A DNA stretch of 64,000 bases from Flexibacter flexilis DSM 6793 (lineage in GTDB: Bacteria; Bacteroidota; Bacteroidia; Cytophagales; Flexibacteraceae): positions 565,854 to 629,853 of the forward strand of contig NZ_FOLE01000002.1 in NCBI RefSeq assembly GCF_900112255.1, in the 5' to 3' direction. The translations under genes and the position numbers were made by a program. A model generated the notes under the pieces. That model was given only the letters and a program-made list of their open reading frames with translations, searched no databases and had not been told where the DNA came from. Below, one piece after another: positions 27,661 to 37,027 of the stretch. Position 1 is the first letter of the stretch, and every line of letters begins with the position of its first letter.

Positions 27661-27836
27661 AAGCAGGTAAAAGAAAGGTAAAAACGGTTCTGTTCATCAA
27701 TGATTTTGAAACTGCAATCTACTAAGGTACCATTGTTTTTGTTTAAAATCAAAGGGTAAACGGCTTTATTTGTGTTTAAATGGCTAATAATTTGGGGGAT
27801 ACTGGCCCTAATATTCAATCATTCAAACTGTTTTAT

Positions 27837-27844
27837 TATTTTTG
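27837..27844 (+). promoter_or_regulatory. -7 box of the glycosyltransferase-like gene
   Basis: TATTTTTG, an exact TAnnTTTG match, lies 49 bases before the ATG at 27894. It lies inside a longer open frame, so it supports the shorter start. Confidence 0.35.
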
Positions 27845-27893
27845 CCGTAATTATTTTTATTTTTTCAAAAAATCAACTGGTATTATTTTTCAA

Positions 27894-29165
27894 ATGCGCA
27901 ATCGCACAGCTATTTATCTCGACCTCTTACACCATTATTTTTCCGATTATGTACTTGCGCTGCCCAAGGCCGAGCGTGCGAAAATGGCTGGTTTCACCCG
28001 CAAAGCAAAGCTAAGACATATCGCTCTTAATTCGGCTTTGGAACTAAAGCGAAACCTAAAAACAAAGTCGGTGGCCGAAACAGAGTTGCACGATAAAATT
28101 TGGGTATTTGCTTACAGCCAAAATGATTTTGATGCCTTAGCTTTTGCAAAAAAAATAGATGGAGCAATTTTTGTGGCCGAACGTGCCCGCAAACTCAAAA
28201 ATTGCGATAAATTATATGTACTCCCGTATCCGTCGCGGCTACCATATTTGCGCCATTTCCCATCATTAATCAAAGGTTTGGTAGAGGCAAAAAACGAACG
28301 CGCCGCTGATTTGTGGGATTTTATCTGGACGGTAACGGGTTGGTACGAAATCACACTCGAAGTTTTGAAAAAATATCGCCCCAAAGCCTTGCTTATTACT
28401 AATGACCATTCTTGTATCCCGAGAGCTTTATTGTTGGCTGGCAAGGAGTTAGGCATCCCAACTATTTTTGTGCAACACGCCAGCGTAACAGCGCATTTTC
28501 CGCCATTAGCTTTTGACCTGAGCTTGCTGGAAGGCCAAGCCGCATGGGACAACTATAAAAAAATTGGCGAAATCACGGGGCGTGTCGAGCTTATCGGAAT
28601 GCCCAAATTTGATAAATTTGCTCCATTGCGCAAGAAACCAACCGAAATAAACTCTTTGGGTATTGCTTTTAACCTAACTGATGATTTGGGTAAAATCCTG
28701 AAAGTTTGTGAGGTTTTGCATGCCAAACTTCCTGATTTGGCCTTATGTGTGCGCCCTCACCCCAAAGACCCGACAAAGCATGATTGGTCTGCGACACATC
28801 CCTACATCAGCAAATCTACGGGTGCGCAAGAAAGTGCCTTCGAGTTTTTGGGCAGACATGATGCCATTATCGCCAATAATACCTCTATTCATTTGGAAGC
28901 GTTGCTGCTCAATATGCCAAGTTTTTATCTGGATATTAGCCGCCCCGATTGCAAAATAGAAGATTTGTACGGTTACATTGCCAACAAACTCGTTCCTGTG
29001 GCGCAATCTGCCGACAATATTATTACCTTCATTCAAAAGCATAACCAACACCCCGAAGACGTGTACCAAAAAGCAAAATATTATAATGCGCTGGTCGGTA
29101 CGCAAGAAGAAGGCCATAGTGAAGAACTGGTCATTAAATACATTAATGATTTTTTAAATAAATAA
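27894..29165 (+). CDS. GT-B-like transferase, CDP-glycerol glycerophosphotransferase type
   Basis: The product of 423 residues (from the ATG at 27894) has the GT-B pattern of capsule and teichoic-acid transferases and related proteins. It shows LLITNDHSCIPRALLLAGKE and GIPTIFVQHASV in the first half, then ELIGMPKFDKF, CVRPHPKDPTKH and ANNTSIHLEALLLNMPSFYLD in the nucleotide-binding half. There is no signal peptide or clear membrane helix. It probably adds a sugar or polyol phosphate to a surface polymer. It stands alone, so donor and acceptor are unknown. The open frame extends to 27780, but the extra residues look like AT-rich promoter DNA. Confidence 0.65.
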   Translation: MRNRTAIYLDLLHHYFSDYVLALPKAERAKMAGFTRKAKLRHIALNSALELKRNLKTKSVAETELHDKIWVFAYSQNDFDALAFAKKIDGAIFVAERARKLKNCDKLYVLPYPSRLPYLRHFPSLIKGLVEAKNERAADLWDFIWTVTGWYEITLEVLKKYRPKALLITNDHSCIPRALLLAGKELGIPTIFVQHASVTAHFPPLAFDLSLLEGQAAWDNYKKIGEITGRVELIGMPKFDKFAPLRKKPTEINSLGIAFNLTDDLGKILKVCEVLHAKLPDLALCVRPHPKDPTKHDWSATHPYISKSTGAQESAFEFLGRHDAIIANNTSIHLEALLLNMPSFYLDISRPDCKIEDLYGYIANKLVPVAQSADNIITFIQKHNQHPEDVYQKAKYYNALVGTQEEGHSEELVIKYINDFLNK

Positions 29166-29221: not shown

Positions 29222-30724
29222 CTACTTATAACGTTCGTTCAGGTGCGCCAATGCTTCTTGACGGTCTATTTCGCGTTGACGTTTGAGCATCACCGTTGGC
29301 GGAACCATGCGTTCAGCGCAGTTTTCGGCCTTGCAACGTTCGCACGTTTGGCTTACTTGGTAGGCGTGCAAATGCTCTTCGTCGGTCAGCGATGGCATTG
29401 TTTTGCGTAGGTCATTGTCTATCTTGATACCCAATGCCACACTACTAAGCCGCTCTGGGTGCAAGTGCGACGGACGCGCCAAAGCCACTATCAAATATTC
29501 GCTTTTCGTACCGATGTATTTGGAAATCTGTGCTTTGGAAATCGTTTCGGGGTTTTCGCCTTTGGCCTGCATTTCGGCCAAATCGTAGAGAATCGTCAAC
29601 GAAGCCCAACGGCGGCAATAATGTTCTTTCAGTACGGTAGCGTGCGGATTGTGCAAGCCCGCAAAGTGCATTTCTTTAATCAAACTCAACTCTTTGCTTT
29701 GTTTGTGATAATCAAAACGCAAGAAAAAGAGGCGATTGATACCAAAACTACGCGGCAAAATGCTGGTCAGGCGAACCATAAACACTTCTGGCGACACGTC
29801 GTAACGTTGCGCCAAATCTGCCCACGCTTGCCCGTCCCAAATCGGATTGGCAAACAATTCTTTTACGTCTTGCTCCAGCGTAACGCGGTTGATGAGCAGC
29901 CCCGCCGCAAAATACGAAGCCTTATAACTATTCAACACTTTCTCGAAAGAATTTACTTTGGTAAGCGAAAACGTAAGCGGTCGGTCGGTCAGGTGCAGGC
30001 GATTAAAACCAATTTCACGCGCCAACACAAAAGCCTGTTGGTACGGTTCTAAATGGCTGTTAATGATGAGTTTAGGGGCTTTGTCGTGTGGAACAAGCAC
30101 CGAACGTGTTTTTTGTAAGGCGGGTTCTTCCGCAAAATCATCGTAATACAGCGTGTAATGATATTTGGATTGAAGAATTTCGATCAGCGAATCTAAGTTA
30201 TGAAAATCAAAATCTTGGCCTTTTTCCGCGCGCAACTCGTCGATAGACGTTTCTATTTCTTCAAAATAATTTTCTTGTAGCTCGATATACGAACGCAAAG
30301 CCGAAAAATAAAAGTCTTCGACCTGCATGTCATAGCCTCTACTTATTTCTGATAGCGTACTGACAAACGCACCAACTTTGGTGGGCGTGTCGGAAAGTAT
30401 ATCCAAAATATCGCTTGGCTCGATGCCAAAAATCTCAAAAGGTAGCTCACTTAGGATATTTGATTTGAGCAAATCGCCGATAGGCTTGAGTCTTTTGTTG
30501 AGCTGAAGGGACACGAGCCAATCATAATTCACGTCCAAAGCCTCCGCCAACACCGCAATTTTATCGCCCTTCGGATATTTTTTTCCTTTTTCCATTTCAT
30601 TCAGATACGAAACAGAAATGCCTGTCTTCTCGCTTAATTCCACAAGTGAGAGACTTTTGTCTGTTCGTAACTGTTTGATTTTCAGACCAAAAATAAGTCT
30701 TATATTTTCTTCTTTGAGAGTCAT
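29222..30724 (-). CDS. RamB/ScfR-family XRE regulator (acyl-CoA metabolism)
   Basis: This 500-residue regulator has an N-terminal XRE helix-turn-helix (residues ~13-68, SLVELSEKTGISVSYLNEME). Its middle region resembles the IrrE/ImmA domain, but the usual HExxH is replaced by REIGFN. Its C-terminal DUF2083-like domain has a Cys cluster, CERCKAENCAERMVPP. That architecture belongs to RamB/ScfR proteins, which in actinobacteria and rhodobacteria control the glyoxylate shunt and short-chain acyl-CoA use. Here it is divergent from aceB, with 163 bases between the starts and a symmetric motif cluster between them, so control of aceB-aceA and itself is a strong inference. Whether it activates or represses is unknown. 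Confidence 0.9.
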   Translation of the reverse strand: MTLKEENIRLIFGLKIKQLRTDKSLSLVELSEKTGISVSYLNEMEKGKKYPKGDKIAVLAEALDVNYDWLVSLQLNKRLKPIGDLLKSNILSELPFEIFGIEPSDILDILSDTPTKVGAFVSTLSEISRGYDMQVEDFYFSALRSYIELQENYFEEIETSIDELRAEKGQDFDFHNLDSLIEILQSKYHYTLYYDDFAEEPALQKTRSVLVPHDKAPKLIINSHLEPYQQAFVLAREIGFNRLHLTDRPLTFSLTKVNSFEKVLNSYKASYFAAGLLINRVTLEQDVKELFANPIWDGQAWADLAQRYDVSPEVFMVRLTSILPRSFGINRLFFLRFDYHKQSKELSLIKEMHFAGLHNPHATVLKEHYCRRWASLTILYDLAEMQAKGENPETISKAQISKYIGTKSEYLIVALARPSHLHPERLSSVALGIKIDNDLRKTMPSLTDEEHLHAYQVSQTCERCKAENCAERMVPPTVMLKRQREIDRQEALAHLNERYK

Positions 30725-30770: not shown

Positions 30771-30821
30771 TTTGCGAAAAATAACCTTTAGCGAAATTTC
30801 GCTTGCAAATTAATTTTCGCT
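30771..30821. promoter_or_regulatory. Nested inverted repeat, candidate RamB/ScfR operator
   Basis: A perfect palindrome AGCGAAATTTCGCT (30790-30803) is flanked by outer half-sites GCGAAA (30774-30779) and TTTCGC (30815-30820). These sit symmetrically about its centre to within one base. The inner palindrome touches the aceB -33 TTG, and the right outer site lies in the promoter spacer. Confidence 0.65.
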
Positions 30822-30833
30822 GATATAGCTTTG
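30803..30833 (+). promoter_or_regulatory. aceB promoter
   Basis: TTG (30803-30805), a 20-base spacer and TAGCTTTG (30826-30833) match the consensus exactly. The leader to the ATG at 30888 would be about 48 bases. Confidence 0.65.
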
Positions 30834-30887: not shown

Positions 30888-32510
30888 ATGACGACCATCA
30901 CCAAAGCTCATGCAGTTGTAGAGATTACAGGCAAAATTTTGCCAGAATACGAAACAGTATTGACCCGCGAGGCCTTACAGTTTGTGGCTCTATTACATAA
31001 AAAATTCAATAAACGCCGTGAGGAGTTATTGAGTGCGAGACAGGTGCGCCAACGCAAAATCGAGGCTGGCGAGCTTCCAACATTTTTGGAAAGCACCGCG
31101 CACATTCGCCAAAGCGAATGGAAAGTAGGCAATATTCCTGCCGACTTGCTCGACCGCCAAGTCGAAATTACGGGACCCACTGACCGCAAAATGGTTATCA
31201 ACGCCCTTAACTCTGGTGCTAAGGTTTTTATGGCCGACTTTGAAGATGCCAATTCCCCTACATGGACTAACATGGTGGAAGGGCAAATCAATCTTTACAA
31301 AGCCATTCGCCGTGAAATAGATTATACCGCCGAAAATGGCAAAAATTATGCACTTAAAGAAAAAGTAGCCGTACTTTTTGCTCGTCCGCGCGGTTGGCAT
31401 TTGCTCGAAAAACACGTGTTGGTGGACGGTGAAGCCGTTTCGGGTTCGATTTTTGACTTCGCTTTGTATTTCTACCACAACGTACACGAACTCACCAAAC
31501 GCGGTAGCGGTCCGTACTACTATTTGCCTAAAATGGAAAGCCATTTGGAAGCGCGTTTGTGGAACGATATTTTCGTAGAAGCCCAAATGCAATTGGGTAT
31601 CCCACAAGGAACTATCAAATCAACGGTACTTATCGAAACAATTTTGGCCGCTTTCGAGATGGACGAAATTTTGTTCGAGTTGCGCGAACACATTGTTGCG
31701 CTAAACGCTGGCCGTTGGGACTATATATTTAGTGTGATTAAAAAATTCCGTAACAATCCAAATTTCTTGTTGCCAGACAGAGGCCAAGTAACCATGACGG
31801 TTCCGTTCATGCGCTCTTATGCCAAACTTTTGGTAAAAACTTGTCACAAACGCGGTGCTTTCGCCATGGGCGGTATGTCTGCTTTCATTCCGAGCCGCAA
31901 AGACGAGGAAATTAACAAAGGTGCTTTCTCTAAAGTACAGTCGGACAAGGACTTGGAATCTACGACAGGTTTTGATGGCACGTGGGTAGCTCACCCAGAT
32001 TTGGTGCCAGTAGCTGCCGAAATTTTCGCGAAAGTGTTGGGCGGCAAGCCCAACCAAGTAGAAAAACAATTGCCAGAAGTAGAAGTAACAGCCGCTCAGC
32101 TACTTGACACCACCATCGAAGGTGGCCAAATCACAGAAGCGGGTTTCCGTGCCAACATCAACGTTGCGATTCTTTACATCGCTTCTTGGTTGCAAGGCGC
32201 AGGCGCAGCAGCTCTTCACAACCTCATGGAAGATGCCGCTACTGCCGAAATCTCAAGAGCGCAAATTTGGCAATGGTTGCACCTACCAAACGTGAAAACG
32301 GCTGAAGGCACTGCCATTACGACTGAATACTACAACAGCATTTTTGCGGAAGAAGTAGCTAAAATTAAAGAGACTGTGGGTGGCGAAGAAAACTTCAAAA
32401 CACAACGTTACGCACGCGCCGCTTCGATTTTCGACCATTTGGTAAAGAGTCCAAACTTTGAGCAGTTCCTTACGCTTCCTGCTTACAACGTTTTAGATTT
32501 AAAGAACTAA
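30888..32510 (+). CDS. aceB: Malate synthase A
   Basis: The enzyme joins glyoxylate and acetyl-CoA to malate, the second step of the glyoxylate shunt. Starting at the ATG at 30888 (540 residues), the product has FMADFEDANSPTW, LFARPRGWHL, YYYLPKMESHLEARLWN, IPQGTIKSTVLIETI, and the family signature REHIVALNAGRWDYIFS. In that signature the usual Gly before Leu-Asn is Ala. A long upstream frame (to 30831) is rejected because it overlaps the promoter. aceA follows 107 bases later, so the pair probably shares the regulated promoter. Confidence 0.97.
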   Translation: MTTITKAHAVVEITGKILPEYETVLTREALQFVALLHKKFNKRREELLSARQVRQRKIEAGELPTFLESTAHIRQSEWKVGNIPADLLDRQVEITGPTDRKMVINALNSGAKVFMADFEDANSPTWTNMVEGQINLYKAIRREIDYTAENGKNYALKEKVAVLFARPRGWHLLEKHVLVDGEAVSGSIFDFALYFYHNVHELTKRGSGPYYYLPKMESHLEARLWNDIFVEAQMQLGIPQGTIKSTVLIETILAAFEMDEILFELREHIVALNAGRWDYIFSVIKKFRNNPNFLLPDRGQVTMTVPFMRSYAKLLVKTCHKRGAFAMGGMSAFIPSRKDEEINKGAFSKVQSDKDLESTTGFDGTWVAHPDLVPVAAEIFAKVLGGKPNQVEKQLPEVEVTAAQLLDTTIEGGQITEAGFRANINVAILYIASWLQGAGAAALHNLMEDAATAEISRAQIWQWLHLPNVKTAEGTAITTEYYNSIFAEEVAKIKETVGGEENFKTQRYARAASIFDHLVKSPNFEQFLTLPAYNVLDLKN

Positions 32511-32617: not shown

Positions 32618-33889
32618 ATGAAAGCCCAAGACATCAACGCATTAGTTCAAGATTGGTCAACCAACCCACGTTGGAAAGGTATCGAACGTCCTTACACTGC
32701 TGAAGACGTATTGAAACTTAGAGGTTCAGTAAAAATCGAATACACTGTGGCACAATTGGGTGCGGAACGCCTTTGGAACTTGCTTAATTCTGAAAGATAT
32801 GTAGCGGGTTTGGGTGCACTTACAGGCAACCAAGCGATTCAGGAAGTACAAGCTGGCTTGAAAGCTATCTATTTGAGCGGTTGGCAAGTAGCTGCTGATG
32901 CAAACCTTGCTGGTCACATGTACCCAGACCAAAGTTTGTATCCTGCGGACAGCGTTCCGAACGTAGTAAAACGCATTAACAATGCGCTTTTGCGTGCAGA
33001 CCAAATCCAATCGGTAACAGGCGAAGGCGATGTACATTGGTTAGCTCCAATCGTGGCAGATGCTGAAGCTGGTTTCGGTGGCAACCTCAACGCTTTCGAA
33101 TTGATGAAAATGATGATTGAGGCTGGTGCATCTGGCGTTCACTTCGAAGACCAACTTTCTTCAGCTAAAAAATGCGGTCACTTGGGTGGTAAAGTGTTGG
33201 TTCCTACGCAAGAGGCTATCAACAAATTAGTTGCGGCACGTTTGGCGGCTGACGCAATGGGCGTTTCTACGGTATTGGTAGCGCGTACGGATGCTGATGC
33301 AGCAAACTTACTTACAAGTGACGTGGACGACCGCGACCGTCGTTTCGTAACTGGCGAACGCAGCAGCGAAGGTTTCTATTATGTAAAAGCAGGTATCGAG
33401 CAAGCAATCGACAGAGGTTTGTCTTACGCTCCTTATGCTGACTTGGTATGGTGCGAAACTTCTCACCCAGATTTGGGCGAAGCACGCGAATTTGCGCAAG
33501 CAATCCACGCCAAATATCCAGGTAAGTTATTGGCTTACAACTGCTCACCTTCATTCAACTGGGCTTCTAAATTATCGGAAAGCGAAATGCTTACTTTCCG
33601 TGAAAATATTGCCGACATGGGTTACAAATTCCAATTCATCACGTTGGCTGGTTTCCATGCACTCAATACAAGTATGTTTGAATTAGCGTCTGCTTACCGC
33701 GACCGCGGCATGGCTGGCTACTCAGAGTTGCAACAAAAAGAATTTGCACTTCAGGCGAAAGGTTTCCGTGCAGTTAAGCACCAAGCCTTCGTAGGAACAA
33801 GCTATTTCGATGCCGTTCAGACCATCGTTACAAATGGTTTGTCTTCTACTACAGCATTGAAAGGTTCGACAGAAGAAGCGCAATTCTAA
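32618..33889 (+). CDS. aceA: Isocitrate lyase
   Basis: The enzyme splits isocitrate into glyoxylate and succinate, letting the cell grow on acetyl-CoA sources. The 423-residue product has [14 protein letters not shown], the metal-binding [15 protein letters not shown], the catalytic signature [15 protein letters not shown] (catalytic Cys in KKCGH), and [13 protein letters not shown]. The length fits the short bacterial class (about 430). It lies between aceB and pckA in the same direction. Codon choice is even and translation-friendly, as expected of a strongly expressed gene. Confidence 0.98.
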
Positions 33890-34227: not shown

Positions 34228-35829
34228 ATGTCATCTGTTCATTCAAACATCCTAAAAGGTGCAGCTAACTTCGCACCTTCGCAAGTATTGTGGAATCTAA
34301 CACCAGCAGAATTAGTAGAGGAAGCTCTACGCAATGGTGAGGGAGTATTAGCCGACAACGGCGCATTAATGGCCGACACTGGTAAATTTACTGGTCGTTC
34401 GCCTAAAGACAAATTCGTAGTAAAAGACGCTAACACCGAAAAAACAGTTTGGTGGGGCGACGTAAACAACGTATTTGATACCAACAAATTTGAGCAACTC
34501 TACAAAGACATGGTTGCGTTCTTGGAAGGTAAGCGTGTGTATGTTCGCGAATTGATTGCTGGTGCAAATCCGTCGCACAACTTGCGTGTACGCGTGGTAA
34601 ACACGGTAGCTTGGCACAACTTGTTCTGCTACAATATGTTTATCCGCCCAGCTGCTGAGCAATTGGCAGCATTTGACCCAGAGTTCACGATTTTGTGTGT
34701 ACCTGAGTTTCAAGCAGACCCTGCCGTACATGGCACACGTCAATCAAACTTTGCGATTTTGGATTTTACGCGCAAAATGATTTTGATTGGTGGCACGGGC
34801 TACGCTGGCGAAATGAAAAAAGGCATTTTCGCAGTATTGAACTACATGTTGCCACACGAACAAAATGTGTTGTCTATGCACTGTTCGGCAAACATTGGTA
34901 AAGACGGTGACTCGGCTGTATTTTTTGGCTTGTCGGGTACTGGTAAAACTACGCTTTCGGCTGACCCACTTCGCAACCTTGTAGGTGACGACGAACACGG
35001 TTGGGCTGCTGACGGCATCTTTAACTTTGAAGGTGGTTGCTACGCCAAAGTAATTGACCTTTCTCGCGAAAAAGAACCGCAAATTTTCGATGCCATTCGT
35101 TTCGGTTCGATTCTCGAAAATACGCGCTTCTATCCGAACACGCGTACTCCTGATTATGCAAACAAATCAGTAACAGAAAACACTCGTACTTCTTACCCAC
35201 TTCATTATATCCCAGGTGCGGTAGAACCATCGGTTGGGCCTGTTCCTAAAAATATATTCTTCCTTACAGCTGATGCTTTCGGTGTATTGCCTCCAATTTC
35301 ACGCCTTACACCAGGCCAAGCGATGTATCACTTCATTTCGGGTTATACCGCAAAAGTGGCTGGTACAGAAGTAGGCGTAGTAGAACCACAAACAACGTTC
35401 TCGGCTTGTTTCGGTCAGGCTTTCTTGCCTTTGCACCCAACTCGCTACGCTGCGATGCTCGGCCAAAAAATCAGCGAAAATAAAGTAAACGTATGGCTTG
35501 TAAACACTGGCTGGTCTGGTGGTAGCTATGGCGTTGGTAGCCGCATCAAATTGCCTTACACTCGTGCCCTTATTACGGCGGCATTGTCTGGCGAATTGGA
35601 CAAAGTGAGCTTTACCAAACACCCAGTATTCGGTGTGGAAATGCCTGATAGCTGCCCTAACGTACCAACAGAGTTGTTGCACCCACGCAACACGTGGTCA
35701 GACAAAGCCGCTTACGACGAAAAAGCACAACAATTAGCGAAAGCATTTGCCGATAACTTTGAAAAATTCAGCGATTTCGCAACAGAAGAAATGTTAGCGG
35801 GTGCGCCTAAAGTAGGAGTTTTGGACTAA
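34228..35829 (+). CDS. pckA: ATP-dependent phosphoenolpyruvate carboxykinase
   Basis: The enzyme turns oxaloacetate into PEP, the entry step of gluconeogenesis. The 533-residue product has GRSPKDKFVV, MHCSANIGKDGD, the kinase-1a P-loop GLSGTGKTTLSADP, and the metal-binding LVGDDEHGWAADGIFNFEGG. The ATP-dependent form is shown by these motifs and by length. It takes oxaloacetate made through the glyoxylate shunt encoded just upstream. It has its own predicted promoter at 34059. It starts ATGTCATCTG 338 bases after aceA. Confidence 0.98.
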   Translation: MSSVHSNILKGAANFAPSQVLWNLTPAELVEEALRNGEGVLADNGALMADTGKFTGRSPKDKFVVKDANTEKTVWWGDVNNVFDTNKFEQLYKDMVAFLEGKRVYVRELIAGANPSHNLRVRVVNTVAWHNLFCYNMFIRPAAEQLAAFDPEFTILCVPEFQADPAVHGTRQSNFAILDFTRKMILIGGTGYAGEMKKGIFAVLNYMLPHEQNVLSMHCSANIGKDGDSAVFFGLSGTGKTTLSADPLRNLVGDDEHGWAADGIFNFEGGCYAKVIDLSREKEPQIFDAIRFGSILENTRFYPNTRTPDYANKSVTENTRTSYPLHYIPGAVEPSVGPVPKNIFFLTADAFGVLPPISRLTPGQAMYHFISGYTAKVAGTEVGVVEPQTTFSACFGQAFLPLHPTRYAAMLGQKISENKVNVWLVNTGWSGGSYGVGSRIKLPYTRALITAALSGELDKVSFTKHPVFGVEMPDSCPNVPTELLHPRNTWSDKAAYDEKAQQLAKAFADNFEKFSDFATEEMLAGAPKVGVLD

Positions 35830-36013: not shown

Positions 36014-37027
36014 ATGCTATCTGAAGAAGACATTGCAGTCCCCGTAGGGACTACCCTTGACCGCTTCATTATGCGCAAGCAAGAAGCGTTTCCGTATGCT
36101 ACTGGCGAGCTTTCGCAGTTGATTCGTGATATAGCCTTAGCCTCTAAGATTATCAATCGCGAAATTAACCGCGCAGGGCTTATCAATATAGCGGGCATGT
36201 ACGGAACACAAAACATACAAGGCGAAGAACAACAAAAGTTGGATGTAATCGCTGACGTGCGTTTTATCCGTGCCCTCAAAAATGGCGGCGAAGTATGTGC
36301 CATCATTTCGGAAGAACAAGATAAGATTATTGATACGGGCAATCGCCATGGCAAATATGTGGTGGCTCTTGACCCGCTGGACGGTTCGTCGAATATCGAC
36401 GTAAACGTCTCGATTGGAAGTATATTTTCGGTGTATCGCCGTGTAACGCCTGTTGGCACTGTGCCTAACGAAACCGATGTATTGCAGTCGGGTCGCAAAC
36501 AAGTAGCCGCTGGCTATGTGTTGTATGGCTCTTCTACGATGTTGGTTTATACCACAGGGCATGGCGTGCATGGTTTCACTTACGATGCTTCGCTGGGTGA
36601 GTTCTTTTTGTCTCACACCGAAATCAAAATTCCAGAGAAAGGGAAAATATTCTCTTACAACGAAGGAAACTACGACGATTTCTCACCAGCGATACAATCG
36701 TACATTACGGACTGTAAAACTCGCCGTTATTCGGGGCGTTATATTGGTTCGTTAGTGGCTGATTTTCACCGTAATATGCTCAAAGGCGGAATTTATTTGT
36801 ACCCTCCAACGCAAAAAGCTCCAAACGGAAAATTGCGTTTGTTGTACGAATGTTATCCGTTGGCGATGCTCATTGAGCAAGCAGGCGGCATGGCCACAGA
36901 CGGCAAACAGCCGATTTTGGACATCGTGCCAACCGACTTGCATCAGCGCACGCCACTGTATATCGGCTCGGCGGACATGGTTCGCACCGTAACGCAAGGT
37001 TTGGAAACCGAATATGCAGCACAATAA
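36014..37027 (+). CDS. fbp: Fructose-1,6-bisphosphatase class 1
   Basis: The enzyme removes the 1-phosphate from fructose-1,6-bisphosphate, the committed last step of gluconeogenesis. The 337-residue product has ISEEQDK, the metal site [16 protein letters not shown], and the active-site signature [20 protein letters not shown]. It completes the aceB-aceA-pckA-fbp set. A weak promoter, TTG (35979-35981) with TATCGTTG (35999-36006), would give a leader of only a few bases. Readthrough from pckA is also possible. A terminator follows. Confidence 0.97.

Follow-up and report, generated by a model that had tools for sequence, protein, structure and literature searches.

We propose that a cluster of palindromic half-sites in front of aceB in Flexibacter flexilis is the operator of the ScfR/IsaR-type regulator encoded divergently from aceB, and we put the probability that this regulator is its cognate reader at about 0.87. 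The cluster was identified in a 64,000-nucleotide stretch of the genome (the window), and its status as an operator follows from the conservation of the palindrome among relatives that carry the regulator. The conserved form of the site, as aligned here, is a core palindrome followed by a third half-site towards aceB. Neither the regulator family nor the kind of target is new; as far as our literature search reaches, the novelty lies in the operator with its three half-sites, the regulon and the phylum.

Table 1. Features of the regulator-aceB region and neighbouring genes, in positions of the window
Feature	Position	Strand	Remark
Regulator, 500 aa, ScfR/IsaR type	29222..30724	-	HTH_3 at residues 16-70, IrrE-like domain at 203-320, cysteine-bearing C-terminal region
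Codons of C461-x2-C464-x4-C469, predicted [4Fe4S] ligands	29318..29344	-	C370, at 29615-29617, joins as predicted ligand
Left outer half-site GCGAAA	30774..30779	.	17 bp from inner left half
Inner (core) palindrome AGCGAAATTTCGCT, perfect	30790..30803	.	centre between 30796 and 30797
-33 element TTG, predicted aceB promoter	30803..30805	+	first T common to palindrome
Right outer half-site TTTCGC	30815..30820	.	18 bp from inner right half; within -33/-7 spacer
-7 element TAGCTTTG, fits TAnnTTTG	30826..30833	+	begins 29 bp right of palindrome centre
aceB, malate synthase A	30888..32510	+	ATG at 30888; direct target in the proposed reading
aceA, isocitrate lyase	32618..33889	+	downstream of aceB, same direction
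pckA, PEP carboxykinase	34228..35829	+	motif precedes pckA in other genera
fbp, class 1 fructose-bisphosphatase	36014..37027	+	motif precedes fbp in other genomes

All four half-sites that a sequence-only reading of the window had reported were found exactly where it placed them (Table 1), inside the 163 bp that separate the regulator gene from aceB. Read from the letters, the outer half-sites are mirrored about position 30797 and the inner half-sites about 30796.5, in keeping with the earlier claim of symmetry to within one base. The coordinates also agree with that reading in that the palindrome abuts the -33 TTG and the right outer half-site lies in the promoter spacer; the -33 and -7 elements are those that we take to form the aceB promoter, judged by the Bacteroidota promoter consensus.

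To follow the site across the order, we used an evenly drawn sample of 390 genomes in which the regulator was called at E <=1e-40 and aceB at E <=1e-60; 173 genomes have the regulator, 104 have aceB and 94 have both. In aceB upstream regions read up to 700 bp, GCGAANNTTCGC was present in 92/94 genomes with the regulator versus 1/10 genomes without it. The two misses among the 94 are G152, for which a 64-base stretch at the aceB start is available at a contig end, and G067, which is considered below. Eight of the ten regulator-negative aceB genomes belong to family f2, and none of these eight promoters has the site; the other two are G126 (81% complete), which also lacks both site and regulator, and G203 (77% complete), the exception with a site. 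At aceB, the positive side of the contrast comprises nine families that have both regulator and site, and the negative side is in essence a single family (f2) plus G126.

Scanning all genomes of the order sample, we found AGCGAANNTTCGCT in 155/173 regulator-positive genomes (256 sites versus 28 for the control motif, i.e. the same pattern reversed) and in 31/217 regulator-negative genomes (39 sites versus 34 for the control). The corresponding Fisher p-value of 6.5e-55 is inflated by related genomes, since members of a clade are not independent and the positives at aceB come from nine families. The exact AGCGAANNTTCGCT was absent from 18/173 regulator-positive genomes, 10 of which have GCGAANNTTCGC at aceB. 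Similarly, in 345 genomes across the phylum, the motif was present in 55/66 regulator-positive genomes (93 sites versus 19 for the control) and in 55/279 regulator-negative genomes (70 versus 70; p = 3e-22).

An alignment-based search for named relatives gave 542 matches, the best 80 of which make up our named loci, while a search with the single protein gave none. These best 80 of 542 include Pontibacter, Arcicella, Dyadobacter, Runella, Emticicia, Marivirga, Flexithrix and Saprospiraceae as well as one Chitinophagales and one Balneolales MAG. The sequence-only reading had named conservation of the palindrome where the regulator adjoins aceB as one of its checks: aceB adjoins the regulator in 30/80 of these loci (best 80 of 542), and the site lies between the two genes in 30/30, one of them from Balneolales. 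In the remaining 50/80 (again from the best 80 of 542), no aceB was found within the stretch examined; leaving aside L201, which is at a contig edge, the site is <=400 bp upstream of the regulator in 16 of these 49 loci and none was found there in 33. Altogether, the site was detected 52 times and the reversed control 0 times in 700 kb of named loci (best 80 of 542). In families f25/f26, the exact motif was present in 17 of 23 regulator-positive genomes and in none of the other 6. Of these 17, 15 have it 54-58 bp and one has it 107 bp in front of the regulator match, and in G527 it is found elsewhere.

We next describe the protein. In the window regulator, the HTH_3 and IrrE-like domains scored above the Pfam cut-offs, and the C-terminal domain of ScfRs (PF09856) scored 17.1 bits (E 0.0052), below its cut-off of 24; among 20 members of a regulator alignment, 12 matched PF09856 at E <=1, the best at 0.00099. 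This cut-off is a property of the library and not of the protein, and tests of fold and cysteines rank higher. C370 and C461-x2-C464-x4-C469 were invariant in 20/20 regulators and in 49/49 of a further set, which comprises the window protein and 48 of the 80 named loci (best 80 of 542; L170 has a stop). By order and spacing, and without a residue-level alignment, these four cysteines match the [4Fe4S] ligands of PrpR from Mycobacterium tuberculosis (MtPrpR), given as C363 and C447-x2-C450-x4-C455 in a motif described as a mark of the clade (PMC6765138). Moreover, a fold search with an AlphaFold2 model of the regulator (mean pLDDT 86, pTM 0.73) returned MtPrpR chains first (E 4.8e-11, TMt 0.66), with Z 25.1 over residues 137-492 and 19% identity in the aligned part; the next other protein reached Z 14.1, and CapP and IrrE had Z 13-14, among the matches listed. 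The MtPrpR fold in question combines an HTH with IrrE-like, GAF-like and C-terminal regions that follow it. A profile search of the PDB with the regulator matched HTH domains alone. Finally, the gene neighbourhood agrees with that of ScfR/IsaR proteins, whose genes lie beside acyl-CoA assimilation genes and whose sites precede these: aceB adjoins, with the site in between, in 30/80 named loci (best 80 of 542). On the four [4Fe4S]-type cysteines and the predicted fold, we assign the protein to the ScfR/IsaR regulators. Its identity as RamB was considered and rejected, as the RamB equivalog NF038139 matched residues 13-288 with 43.4 bits, far below the NCBIfam cut-off of 700; it is RamB-like in neighbourhood. 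With the conservation at 92/94 aceB genes and 30/30 named pairs (best 80 of 542), the cysteines and the fold uphold the earlier assignment of the site to the divergent RamB/ScfR-type regulator; the cooperative pair of dimers that came with this assignment is one possibility beside a single tetramer (below).

To define the conserved architecture, we aligned on the palindrome 90 aceB promoters from 36 genera with one vote per genus; 3/93 promoters with short flanks were left out. The conserved form of the core is AGCGAA-WW-TTCGCT, and the conserved stretch consists, in order, of TTTAGCGAAWTTTCGCTTG, TTTCGCT in the spacer and TAnnTTTG. In the site that lies closest to aceB, TTCGC was detected as right outer half-site in 68/93 promoters, 17-19 bp from the inner right half (59/68 at 18 bp), and GCGAA as left outer half-site in 19/93, with a distance of 17 or 18 bp to the inner left half (17 bp in 14/19); both were present in 12/93 and neither in 18/93. 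With shuffled flanks, the 90 promoters gave a mean of 0.28 and at most 2 for the right outer half-site, and a mean of 0.23 and at most 3 for the left one. The spacing in the window, i.e. 17 bp on the left and 18 bp on the right, is the commonest on each side. The -7 box starts +27 to +30 from the palindrome centre in 69/93 promoters and at exactly +29 in 51. A perfect TAnnTTTG box was looked for and was absent at 19/93 aceB, 6/21 pckA, 16/18 ilvD, 3/5 leuA and 5/5 pyruvate carboxylase (pyc) sites.

From this alignment, we conclude that the proposed operator in its conserved form is one of three half-sites, namely the core plus a third TTCGC approximately 18 bp towards aceB. The fourfold symmetric cluster put forward in the sequence-only reading is real in the window, but because the left outer half-site is present in 19/93 promoters and all four half-sites in 12/93, it is not the conserved form. 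Cooperative binding by two dimers would be one possibility and a single tetramer another, as most promoters lack the left outer half-site and the closest relative with a solved structure is described as a homotetramer (PMC6765138). Two palindromes were present in 17/93 aceB upstream regions, 9 of them with the pair 120-121 bp apart, in g36 genomes (e.g. L106, L113, L116), and 4 with the pair 129-135 bp apart; such pairs could permit looping.

The sequences themselves show where the site lies, how far it is conserved, that it accompanies the regulator, which genes follow it and to which family the regulator belongs; from this we infer physical binding, the oligomer, the ligand and the sign of regulation. 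An HTH dimer of the regulator would read the core AGCGAA-WW-TTCGCT; further HTH units of the same oligomer, which would be a tetramer if MtPrpR-like, would contact the third half-site, which lies in the spacer 18 bp further downstream, and F. flexilis and the minority of relatives with a fourth, upstream half-site would have this one contacted too. Bound in this way, the regulator would cover the -33 element and the spacer of the aceB promoter, and aceBA would most likely be silent while the cells grow on sugars. The C-terminal domain, stabilised by [4Fe4S], would bind a short-chain acyl-CoA; this would alter the complex, and aceBA would be turned on with acetate or fatty acids. We consider repression to be the more likely sign, because the core directly adjoins the -33 element and the spacer, which polymerase needs, holds the third half-site. 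Moreover, at ilvD and leuA of relatives, the promoter box is upstream of the site in the 4/23 cases in which a box was found, and 11/18 ilvD sites are no further than 32 bp from the called start codon (in 9/18 the centre lies 9-32 bp before it, in 2/18 just inside the called ORF), which also favours repression.

Activation, or a dual action switched by the ligand, has an appreciable, if smaller, chance. In its plainest form, which we regard as possible and slightly less likely again, the same regulator at the same operator activates aceB from the core at approximately -41, with the spacer half-site as an inhibitory contact or part of a two-state switch; this alternative differs from the proposed mechanism in sign only. 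In 51/93 promoters, 29 bp separate the core centre from the -7 box that follows it, which by the numbering of the -33 and -7 boxes corresponds to roughly -41, and this is a classic activator position. Furthermore, 4/21 pckA sites are located further upstream, at +47/+48 from the box. Precedents exist for both signs: RamB of Paracoccus, divergent to aceB-icl, is described as an activator that needs two boxes (PMC10370305) and MtPrpR as an activator of prpD and icl1 (PMC6765138), whereas RamB of Corynebacterium glutamicum is reported to repress aceA and aceB and to act mostly as a repressor (PMC4448153). Against activation stand the third half-site within the promoter spacer in 68/93 promoters and the ilvD and leuA positions described above.

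By contrast, it is very unlikely that another, unlinked regulator reads the palindrome and that the ScfR/IsaR-type protein merely co-occurs with it. XRE-type proteins are numerous, and the evidence for the regulator is co-occurrence and neighbourhood; however, the site tracks the regulator gene in 30/30 aceB-linked named loci (best 80 of 542), is near the regulator in 16/17 motif-bearing f25/f26 genomes and is absent together with the regulator in f2 and G126. Moreover, HTH and site are both changed in one genome, G067 (L150), the sole regulator-positive genome of the 94 that has a full aceB upstream region and no canonical site. Its recognition segment reads SYLHDIEN versus SYLNEIEK in most relatives, and upstream of its aceB there is an asymmetric AGCGAAAATTTCTCT plus the exact reverse complement. 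A changed HTH together with a changed site is what is expected if this HTH reads the site directly, and G067, as one genome, is a possible case of natural HTH-operator covariation; L064 (G249), with SYLSEIEN, has part of the G067 change, yet carries a canonical site beside the regulator. The surroundings of the palindrome are A/T-rich, but as an explanation, a chance repeat or a feature common to promoters at large, with no regulator involved, has practically no likelihood, because GCGAANNTTCGC is expected 0.046 times in 64 kb from base composition, GCGAAATTTCGC occurs a single time in the whole 4.25 Mb genome, 92/94 relatives have GCGAANNTTCGC upstream of aceB, the f2 aceB promoters lack the site (8/8), and motif counts are at control level in regulator-negative genomes (39 versus 34; 70 versus 70) and far above it in regulator-positive ones.

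Four characterised systems come closest to the one proposed here. C. glutamicum RamB (ScfR class 1) is likewise an HTH regulator of aceA/aceB and is described as negatively autoregulated; its box, given as AA/GAACTTTGCAAA, differs from AGCGAA-WW-TTCGCT (PMC4448153), and the window protein matches the RamB model weakly. The gene for RamB of Paracoccus denitrificans (ScfR class 2) is divergent from its neighbours for malate synthase and isocitrate lyase, and the protein uses a double site whose spacer is 18 bp, which we count as a likeness; by contrast, it is described as an activator of glyoxylate genes with two near-identical boxes (PMC10370305), where we find a palindrome plus half-sites. MtPrpR (IsaR) is the best structural match, has similarly ordered and spaced cysteine ligands and is divergent to its target; it differs in activating, as reported, the methylcitrate cycle and icl1 (PMC6765138) and in sharing 19% identity with the window regulator. 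MtPrpR is reported to bind TTTGCAAA-N-TTTGCgAA with the half-site GC(A/G)AA (PMC6765138, PMC3420887), and in our own reading of the letters the middle of this box, GCAAA-N-TTTGC, has the layout of GCGAA-NN-TTCGC. PccR of Rhodobacter (Cereibacter) sphaeroides is also an ScfR-type regulator of an acyl-CoA assimilation gene, with propionyl-CoA carboxylase as the target described (PMC12632250). In the same reading of the letters, the known ScfR boxes and the operator proposed here may share an inner inverted repeat, GC(A/G)AA...TT(T/C)GC. In the open-access literature searched, no Bacteroidota transcription factor or operator for the glyoxylate shunt or gluconeogenesis was found among the matches listed, which agrees with, but does not prove, the earlier statement that no described operator of this family was known in Bacteroidota.

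In F. flexilis itself, aceB, aceA, pckA and fbp form one row, all in the direction of aceB. A search of the 64-kb window with AGCGAAWWTTCGCT at <=3 mismatches gave 18 matches versus 15.8 expected, with none in the aceA-pckA or pckA-fbp gaps, and the aceB operator was the only one found in the window. With <=2 mismatches, the whole genome gave 179 matches versus 151 for the control, i.e. near background, and the 13 one-mismatch sites were all inside ORFs according to a simple ORF caller. The regulator looks like a local switch with one operator in this genome; in relatives, gluconeogenic genes and its own gene also have the motif in front of them. One of the one-mismatch sites, AGCAAAATTTCGCT (L324 1501-1514; C6:251811 of the same genome), coincides with the first bases of an ORF on the minus strand, so that it may in fact be intergenic; it is possibly a weak second site. 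On the other side of the regulator gene, an ORF of 461 aa (27780-29165) is convergent to it and had no Pfam match at E 0.01.

To identify targets in relatives, we examined 84 sites in 81 stretches from regulator-positive genomes picked for other or extra sites, for which reason the counts are not frequencies; target names were assigned after the clusters had been inspected, and one representative per enzyme cluster was searched. At 67/84 sites, at least one named target follows in the proper orientation at a distance of no more than 400 bp, and 17/84 precede none. Sites were found before pckA (21), ilvD (18), the regulator itself (9, of which 6 are common with pckA), fbp (6), pyruvate carboxylase (5), leuA (5), gltB (2), an SCP2 protein (2) and GAPDH (2), and once each before a FadE-like acyl-CoA dehydrogenase, glutamate dehydrogenase and citrate synthase. 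The genes on the opposite side of the same sites, i.e. the etherase murQ (11), a peptide symporter (10) and aspartokinase (6), were taken as divergent neighbours and set aside. The motif allows regulator and targets to be mapped with nothing but sequence searches.

Counterparts of a switch between sugar use and gluconeogenesis are known elsewhere in Cra or IclR. For Bacteroidota, we tentatively suggest, at slightly less than even odds, a phylum-wide switch of this type that responds to acyl-CoA, in which one ScfR/IsaR tetramer would act on three- or four-half-site operators, spaced by 17/18 bp, in front of its own gene and of aceBA, pckA, fbp, GAPDH and pyruvate carboxylase, with one family rewired to ilvD and leuA and with paralogues on CG- and AT-centred sites.

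In family f10, the palindrome precedes ilvD (18 sites) and leuA (5 sites), genes of branched-chain amino acid synthesis (stretches L254, L256-L259, L266, L270, L274, L277, L279, L281, L287, L289, L291, L292, L294, L295 and L297; further f10 stretches are L255, L260, L267, L272 and L286). The natural variants, i.e. G067 and the CG- and AT-centred sites, provide material on how HTH and operator change together. CG-centred sites (AGCGAACGTTCGCT) make up 5/21 pckA sites (L268, L269, L273, L290, L293) and the sites upstream of the regulator in f25/f26, and 15/18 ilvD sites are AT-centred; two or three paralogues of the regulator were present in some genomes.
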